This document shows, one piece after another, positions 22,710-23,909 of a stretch of DNA of 28,619 nucleotides. The notes beneath the pieces are model-generated. The model was not told the origin of the DNA, made no database searches, and worked only from the letters and a program-made list of their open reading frames with translations. Origin of the DNA: a virus; the IMG/VR virus record IMGVR_UViG_3300044638_000842, positions 1 to 28,619 of that record, one strand, 5' to 3'. Each line of letters starts with the position of its first letter. The first letter of the stretch is position 1. Made by a program: the position numbers and the translations under genes.

Positions 22710-22740
22710 CAAATATAGATTATTTTACCAATAATTCAAA
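22710..22740 (-). promoter_or_regulatory. Bacteroidetes-type promoter of the replication initiator
   Basis: TTTG (22740-22737), 19 bases, then TATATTTG (22717-22710) on the minus strand: a full consensus match. The -33 box lies inside the last codons of the methyltransferase gene. Transcription should begin around 22706-22703, right at the first leader hairpin. Confidence 0.75.
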
Positions 22741-23721
22741 CTCATTAATAGCTTTAAATATTTGTAAAGCTACTTGAGGAACTATTGCGTTTCCGTAGGC
22801 TTTGATACTTTCGTTTCGCCATTTAGAAAAGGTAATTCCGTCCAATTCTCGGGAAATCCCATCATTTCCGCCACAAATCGGGGGTTGAGTTGGGAATTCT
22901 TCCCATCTTCCGAATTCATTGTTGCCCAACTTCCCAAGTCGTTCGTTTCCCCTCTCCCCCTGTTTATAATTGACTCCCTGCTCCCACTCCCCCTGCAATC
23001 GGAAGCCGTTGGAGTTGGTAACATTCCTACTATTTGAGTTGCTAAATTCGGTATCTTGGTTCCATTCGGATATTTCTCCATTCTCTTTTGAAACGTCGTT
23101 AAATTCACTACGTCTTCCTTTGTGGTTGGAGTAAGCAACATTTTCTTGCTTATCATTTGTGCATACTCCGAAGGGCTTAGTGTTCTCCCTTTCATAAAAT
23201 TCTCCAAACGAGGAGTTTCGCACGCTCTTGGAGTTGAAAGCCACAAACCATATTCGATCCCTTCGGTGCGGGGCGTTGACACTTGCAGCTGGTATAAGAA
23301 ACGGTTGTACTTCATAGCCTTGACTTTCCAAGTCAGCACACACCTCGTCGAATACCAACCCTCCATTCCAACTAACAAGTCCACGAACGTTTTCGCCAAT
23401 GATCCATCGGGGTTTAATTTCTTTAATTGCTCGTAACATTTCAGGAAAGAGGTGTCTTTCGTCGGCTTTCCCAAGTCGTTTTCCGGCTGTTGAGTAGGGT
23501 TGACAAGGGAACCCTCCTGTAAGGACGTCAACTGTTCCTTGGTGAATAGAGAAGTTTGTTTTAGTAATGTCATTGTAAGATTTTGAGTTAGGGAAGTGGT
23601 GGGCTAAAACTTTTTGTCCAAATGGGTTCCATTCACAATGGAATATATTTTCCCAGCCTGCCCATTCGGCTGCTAAATCAAAGCCACCAATTCCGCTGAA
23701 TAATGAAGCGTGTGTTAGCAT
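22720..23721 (-). CDS. C5-cytosine DNA methyltransferase
   Basis: A 333-residue enzyme that transfers a methyl group to C5 of cytosine in DNA. Motif I is SLFSGIGGFD, motif IV is TGGFPCQPYS (catalytic C73), motif VI is GENVRG (E110), motif VIII is HRRDRIWFVAF and motif X is KAYGNAIVPQVA. The target recognition region (about 190-280) is Asn/Glu/Arg-rich and unusual. Without a restriction enzyme in the window it is probably a solitary methylase protecting phage DNA. About 80% of the gene also carries another open frame (22782-23573). The start overlaps the HTH gene by 7 bases. Confidence 0.93.
   Translation of the reverse strand: MLTHASLFSGIGGFDLAAEWAGWENIFHCEWNPFGQKVLAHHFPNSKSYNDITKTNFSIHQGTVDVLTGGFPCQPYSTAGKRLGKADERHLFPEMLRAIKEIKPRWIIGENVRGLVSWNGGLVFDEVCADLESQGYEVQPFLIPAASVNAPHRRDRIWFVAFNSKSVRNSSFGEFYERENTKPFGVCTNDKQENVAYSNHKGRRSEFNDVSKENGEISEWNQDTEFSNSNSRNVTNSNGFRLQGEWEQGVNYKQGERGNERLGKLGNNEFGRWEEFPTQPPICGGNDGISRELDGITFSKWRNESIKAYGNAIVPQVALQIFKAINEFELLVK
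22782..23573 (-). CDS. Long open frame nested in the methyltransferase gene (+1 phase)
   Basis: A 263-residue frame with ATG start, same strand, +1 phase, covering methyltransferase codons about 50-313. It reads like a protein: MTLLKQTSLFTKEQLTSLQE, then LAKTFVDLLVGMEGWYSTRCVLTWKVKAMKYNRFLYQLQVSTP, LLPTPTASDCRGSGSR and LNPRFVAEMMGFPENWTELPF. I recall proteins with the PTPTA-x-D and LNPRFV...MMGFP-x-x-W-T-E-L-P-F motifs in other Bacteroidetes phages, some linked to cytosine methyltransferases, but could not check this. No membrane or catalytic motif is clear. Two overlapping conserved proteins would be a case of overprinting; a long chance frame is the alternative. Confidence 0.55.
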   Translation of the reverse strand: MTLLKQTSLFTKEQLTSLQEGSLVNPTQQPENDLGKPTKDTSFLKCYEQLKKLNPDGSLAKTFVDLLVGMEGWYSTRCVLTWKVKAMKYNRFLYQLQVSTPRTEGIEYGLWLSTPRACETPRLENFMKGRTLSPSEYAQMISKKMLLTPTTKEDVVNLTTFQKRMEKYPNGTKIPNLATQIVGMLPTPTASDCRGSGSRESIINRGRGETNDLGSWATMNSEDGKNSQLNPRFVAEMMGFPENWTELPFLNGETKVSKPTETQ

Positions 23722-23909
23722 AACTTATAACTTGCAAAGGTTTTACCACTAATAGTTACATTCTTAGTTACAATCTTTAATCCATCATTTCTTAAATCGC
23801 TAATCCTGGCAGCTAATCTAAAGCACCCGAATTTATTTAATGCGTCCAATGGAGTAATTGATTTGCCTTTAATTAAATAGGCTTTGATTTGTTGGTTTTG
23901 TGTTTTCAT
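23715..23909 (-). CDS. HTH_39-like winged helix protein
   Basis: A 64-residue protein, MKTQNQQIKAYLIKGKSITP then LDALNKFGCFRLAARISDLRNDGLKIVTKNV. The L-D-A-L-x-x-F-G-x-x-R-L-A-A-R-I-x-D-L-R signature identifies the HTH_39 DNA-binding family, common as small phage genes. It overlaps the methyltransferase start by 7 bases, so the two are probably coupled and it may regulate that gene. Confidence 0.85.
   Translation of the reverse strand: MKTQNQQIKAYLIKGKSITPLDALNKFGCFRLAARISDLRNDGLKIVTKNVTISGKTFASYKLC

Follow-up and report, generated by a model that had tools for sequence, protein, structure and literature searches.

The methyltransferase locus and its nested frame

The window, a stretch of 28,619 nucleotides from the virus record IMGVR_UViG_3300044638_000842, carries portal, terminase, tail and replication genes. 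On its minus strand lies an open reading frame for a C5-cytosine methyltransferase, called alpha throughout, and wholly within this frame a second protein, called beta, is encoded at an offset of 148 nt, which corresponds to the +1 frame. Beta covers 79% of alpha. The original prediction of an ATG-started frame nested in the +1 phase of a cytosine methyltransferase gene is therefore correct, and the sequence motifs it quoted from the nested translation were found there. The frame that it reported is real, with a precise size of 263 residues plus the stop codon. The coordinates of all features are listed in Table 1.

Table 1. Features of the overlapping alpha and beta genes in the window
Feature	Position	Strand	Basis
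Alpha, C5-cytosine methyltransferase ORF, 333 aa, motifs I, IV, VI, VIII, X	22720..23721	-	
Alpha motif I, SLFSGIGGFDLA, SAM binding, outside the overlap	23671..23706	-	
Alpha motif IV, GGFPCQPYS, with catalytic Cys	23491..23517	-	
Alpha motif VI, GENVRG	23380..23397	-	
Alpha motif VIII, HRRDRIWFVA, boundary of the constraint switch	23239..23268	-	
Alpha VIII-X stretch, Asn/Glu/Gly/Ser/Arg-rich	22798..23238	-	Composition; identity 58.6% in alpha vs 71.5% in beta
Alpha motif X, YGNAIVPQ	22774..22797	-	
Beta, nested +1-frame protein, 263 aa	22782..23573	-	ORF; phrog_1008 match (E=2.9e-22, residues 11-248); frame conservation
Beta start codon, ATG	23571..23573	-	Conserved in relatives
Beta N-terminal domain, aa 41-99, two helices and a beta hairpin (predicted)	23277..23453	-	AlphaFold pLDDT about 70-83
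Beta variable region with LSTPRA, LLTPTT and LPTPTASD	22890..23276	-	Beta-frame substitutions; hhalign to L301
Beta motif-IX-like element, LNPRFVAEMMGFPENWTELPF	22827..22889	-	Same element between VIII and X in single-chain enzymes

Alpha matches PF00145 (E=8e-49) as well as TIGR00675 and has the motifs by which a C5 methyltransferase is recognized, including PCQ in motif IV and ENV in motif VI. In a phmmer comparison M.HhaI aligned to alpha residues 5-178 only, and profile matches span the stretch between motifs VIII and X. Upstream of alpha, a 64-aa open reading frame at 23715-23909 ends 7 bases inside the alpha start, an overlap that suggests translational coupling. In a related gut phage (MT835926.1, locus ~519-1520), an intein-like insert interrupts the methyltransferase precisely at its catalytic cysteine, with the junctions GGFP-C|FDGDTLV...VHN|CQPFS; its match to Pfam Intein_splicing (E=1.7e-5) lies below the curated cut-off.

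Beta itself showed no match to Pfam or NCBIfam profiles, including those of methyltransferase domains. AlphaFold modelling of beta alone gave a pLDDT of 62 and a pTM of 0.28, and the model had no match in the PDB. Residues 41-99, which overlap alpha motifs VI-VIII, are among the better-predicted parts of this model and are proposed as a contact region for alpha. The variable region that follows is proposed to be the target-recognition region. A possible resemblance between a YSTRC stretch in beta and recognition-domain motifs of M.HhaI was weighed and was not used as evidence. In the motif-IX-like element, L229, M238, G239 and P241 are invariant in 130 sequences. A beta profile compared by hhalign with four canonical C5 methyltransferases revealed no motif-IX homology.

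Openness of the nested frame

In the window, the +1 frame of alpha remains open for 273 codons; in 10,000 synonymous-codon shuffles of alpha the open run averaged 87 codons and never exceeded 215. So that the sampling itself would not favour the nested frame, similarity of the methyltransferase protein alone was used to choose 80 viral loci. In all 80, the +1 frame was open across approximately 81% of the gene, compared with 31% in the shuffles (P<0.01 for each locus). The +2 frame of the same loci showed no excess openness over synonymous shuffles. The result was similar for bacterial genes: eight nested-type genes showed a +1 excess (P of 0.005 or less), whereas 13 ordinary C5 methyltransferases lacking the full nested frame, taken from bacterial genomes that also carry the nested type, did not (P 0.12 to 1.0; one of the 13 has a partial match to the nested family). 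The nested frame is not open by chance. A search for stop codons in homologous loci, proposed together with the original prediction, found the frame uninterrupted in the homologues.

Conservation of the beta start codon

Among 116 non-redundant loci, 113 retain the ATG of beta. This codon is formed within the alpha codons by one of two routes, either through Asn/His-Asp codons (xATGAC) or through a TAT tyrosine codon that precedes a codon starting with G. Tyrosine in alpha is encoded by TAT in 33 of 35 cases when the next codon begins with G, compared with 20 of 77 when the next residue is Asn or His (Fisher 2.8e-12, for loci that are not independent of each other). This comparison indicates that the start of beta is conserved by means of two alternative codon solutions. 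In several relatives from Bacillota, Shine-Dalgarno-like sequences (AAGGAG/GGAGG) are found just before the beta start, inside alpha codons.

Selective constraint in the two frames

Substitution rates at the three codon positions of alpha were compared across 59 disjoint pairs of relatives. On either side of the overlap the third position changes fastest, with rates at positions 1/2/3 of 0.071/0.043/0.252 ahead of the overlap and 0.130/0.087/0.326 behind it. Between motifs VIII and X, the rates are 0.322/0.205/0.227, with the maximum at alpha position 1, equivalent to beta position 3. Realignment of this region by the beta protein gave 0.202/0.195/0.341 for the beta positions. Amino acid identity follows the same division: alpha is the more conserved protein upstream of motif VIII (90.4% compared with 76.6% for beta), and beta is the more conserved one after it (71.5% compared with 58.6%, 57 pairs). 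Divergence at 4-fold synonymous sites of alpha decreases from 0.283 before the overlap to 0.243 over beta residues 1-40, 0.166 over residues 41-105 and 0.079 in the recognition region, and is 0.352 after the recognition region. Constraint therefore passes from the alpha frame to the beta frame near motif VIII. In the N-terminal part of beta, conservation of residues beyond what alpha dictates was not significant once stop avoidance was removed (z 1.2-1.6).

The refuting pattern of substitutions named with the original prediction did not occur: synonymous change is reduced in the overlap, and in the 3′ half it is the nested frame that the substitutions follow. It had also been remarked that alpha has an unusual recognition region where the two frames coincide. 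The coincidence with the conserved half of beta holds true, and the region itself seems to be mainly a shadow of beta; the VIII-X stretch of alpha is probably a linker.

Re-divided and single-chain relatives

Related loci distribute the same elements differently over the two frames. In a survey of 324 loci, in which the IX and X elements were called by regular expressions, 236 carried motif X in the alpha frame with IX in the beta frame, 13 had both in beta, 11 encoded a single chain, and another 11 had both elements in the catalytic frame together with a short +1 open reading frame. In L211 and L243, alpha stops just after motif VIII and the beta frame continues past LNPDWVExLMGFPxGWTD into motif X. 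Likewise, the alpha frame closes at motif VIII or shortly beyond it in L299, L305, Gordonia phage Upyo and mycobacteriophage Ovechkin, with motif X carried by beta. In all six, the beta frame passes an element of the LNPxWVEWLMGFPxGWT type before it reaches motif X.

A single frame holds motifs I-VIII, an LPTP region, an MGxPxGW element and motif X in both mycobacteriophage DLane gp65 and L301; DLane gp65 carries LLPTP repeats and the element EWMMGWPAGWVT between motifs VIII and X. When beta was compared with L301 by hhalign, as a one-on-one comparison and not a database search, beta residues 184-246 aligned with L301 residues 209-293, between motifs VIII and X, with a probability of 96.8. The AlphaFold model of L301 superimposes on M.HhaI with a Z score of 24.1 and an rmsd of 3.4 over 236 residues; its recognition part is poorly predicted. 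The alignment indicates that the C-terminal half of beta is homologous to the VIII-X segment of single-chain enzymes.

Two further arrangements were observed. Streptomyces phage Darolandstone has the IX-like element in one frame together with motifs I-VIII and X, and its LPTP repeats in the +1 frame. In three loci from Bacteroides genomes (L205, L237 and L249), the methyltransferase frame is interrupted and the nested frame is open for more than 300 codons, which may be due to decay, sequencing error or recoding.

Distribution and annotation

Members of the beta family are encoded by phages whose hosts include Paenibacillus, Lacticaseibacillus, Bacteroides and Porphyromonas, and they also turn up in genomes from Bacteroidota, Bacillota, Pseudomonadota, Parcubacteria and further groups. 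Among 296 sampled Bacteroidota genomes 5 gave a match, weak in two cases; among 398 Pseudomonadota genomes the number was 24. Each of the 23 loci inspected following the proteobacterial searches showed the nested +1 arrangement. Among more than 300 loci, no open reading frame of the beta family was clearly independent of a C5 methyltransferase. The statement in the original prediction that similar motifs occur in phage proteins near other cytosine methyltransferases proved accurate: these proteins correspond to phrog_1008, the family matched by beta, and nearly every relative examined overlaps such a methyltransferase in the +1 frame.

Loci of this kind usually carry wrong annotations. The phrog_1008 label, ‘DNA methyltransferase’, is misleading if read as catalytic, as beta lacks a Pfam or NCBIfam methyltransferase domain. 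In Pseudomonas phage PMG1, the nested open reading frame is annotated as ‘DNA methyltransferase’ and the frame of the real methyltransferase is left unannotated. Paenibacillus phage Shelly has the same nesting, with 33% identity; its nested gene SHELLY_56 (AJK27976.1) is annotated as ‘g55 internal gene’, a hypothetical protein, and no function is proposed there. A partial literature search found no publication on this overlap in phages. A paper on 48 Paenibacillus larvae phages lists methyltransferases, and a term search of it gave no discussion of the nesting.

A methyltransferase probably split between two frames

We consider it highly probable that beta is a real gene, encoding the target-recognition and motif-IX subunit of a frame-split C5-cytosine methyltransferase that assembles with alpha. 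Comparative evidence establishes dual coding, conservation of the beta start, the frame switch in constraint and the C-terminal homology to the single-chain VIII-X segment. Points that weigh against this reading are the low confidence of the model of beta alone and its missing PDB match, the negative profile comparison with canonical motif IX, the non-significant extra conservation in the N-terminal part of beta, and the use of regular expressions to call IX and X in the survey. Further, we infer that beta is expressed, forms a heterodimer with alpha and recognizes the target, and that the enzyme has an anti-restriction role. One mRNA would give rise to both proteins, with beta translated from its own ATG. 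Alpha would contribute motifs I-VIII and X as its SAM-binding and catalytic domain; beta would add the motif-IX element and the variable region for target recognition, both of which lie between VIII and X in single-chain enzymes. Both would assemble into one active enzyme, with beta residues 41-99 contacting alpha, and the Asn/Glu/Gly/Ser/Arg-rich stretch of alpha would act as a linker leading to motif X, its sequence being mainly a shadow of beta. The assembled enzyme would methylate phage DNA, most likely against host restriction. The suggestion made with the original prediction, that a second protein from the same DNA could partner the methylase, thus finds strong comparative support in the open frame, the constraint and the start codon.

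It is very unlikely that programmed ribosomal frameshifting joins both frames into one methyltransferase chain instead of two proteins being made. The two frames are almost always in the +1 relation, natural single-chain versions exist, and loci resembling M.AquI need just one shift after motif VIII for a full enzyme, all of which would suit such a mechanism. However, the type found in the window needs two shifts, because alpha contains motif X and beta contains IX, and one shift does not give a complete enzyme. The conserved beta ATG and Shine-Dalgarno-like sites of Bacillota moreover lie well ahead of the point where a shift would be of use, and the synonymous constraint over beta residues 41-105 also argues against frameshifting.

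That beta functions apart from alpha, for example as the separate regulator or anti-defence factor that had been considered at first, is highly unlikely. Beta has its own start, and its N-terminal domain has no match among solved structures. On the other hand, no clearly independent member of its family appeared among more than 300 loci, and fused and re-divided relatives indicate that its C-terminal part is the missing VIII-X segment. Because relatives fuse or re-divide the pieces of the same enzyme, beta is best regarded as a subunit and not as an independent anti-defence factor. Finally, although conserved alpha motifs partly dictate some conserved beta motifs and N-terminal conservation of beta beyond alpha is weak, it is extremely unlikely that the open frame reflects nothing more than chance or the shadow cast by conserved residues of the methyltransferase, with no second protein made, given its openness in every one of the 80 loci, recognition-region substitutions that track beta codon positions, the synonymous constraint in the alpha frame, the rescue of the start by alternative codons and the relatives that carry motifs IX and X in the beta frame alone.

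Beyond the window, the two-subunit reading can be extended, tentatively and with somewhat less than even confidence, to a widespread and ancient class of frame-split C5 methyltransferases whose catalytic and recognition halves lie in different frames of one DNA stretch, with constraint switching at motif VIII and with variable division and fusion. Such an arrangement may let phages swap recognition modules and thereby specificity, with alpha acting as a tolerant linker in that region. Long same-strand overlaps in which both proteins are under selection are rare in well-studied systems; the overlap described here offers a proposed function, a sharp switch in constraint, and both single-chain and split relatives for comparison. 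A frame-split enzyme would account for the misannotated phage family phrog_1008 and for the many phage C5 methyltransferases that seem to have no normal recognition domain. Recoded cloning of the annotated methyltransferase frame alone could yield an inactive enzyme.

Comparison with known two-polypeptide methyltransferases

The small polypeptide of M.EcoHK31I is encoded within the gene of the large one, in another frame. This enzyme (YGGCCR) consists of a larger polypeptide with motifs I-VIII and X and a smaller one with motif IX (PMC3404938, citing Lee, Kam and Shaw 1995), and its predicted recognition domain was placed in the large subunit (PMC3404938). M.AquI (CYCGRG) is likewise made of two polypeptides, split after motif VIII in the variable region, so that the first carries motifs I-VIII and the second IX-X (PMC3404938). 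With motif X in alpha and an IX-like element in beta, the window pair fits the M.EcoHK31I type of division, likened here by the published arrangement of motifs. In contrast to M.EcoHK31I, it is apparently the nested subunit, a member of a widespread phage family, that contains the recognition region. A division similar to that of M.AquI is seen in L211, L243, L299, L305 and Ovechkin, whereas motif X, which M.AquI has in its small subunit together with IX, stays in alpha in the window. DLane gp65 has the same pieces as the window pair, but in a single chain and one reading frame. What appears to be new is the breadth across phages and phyla, a recognition region encoded by the nested frame, the switch in constraint and the link to one-chain forms.
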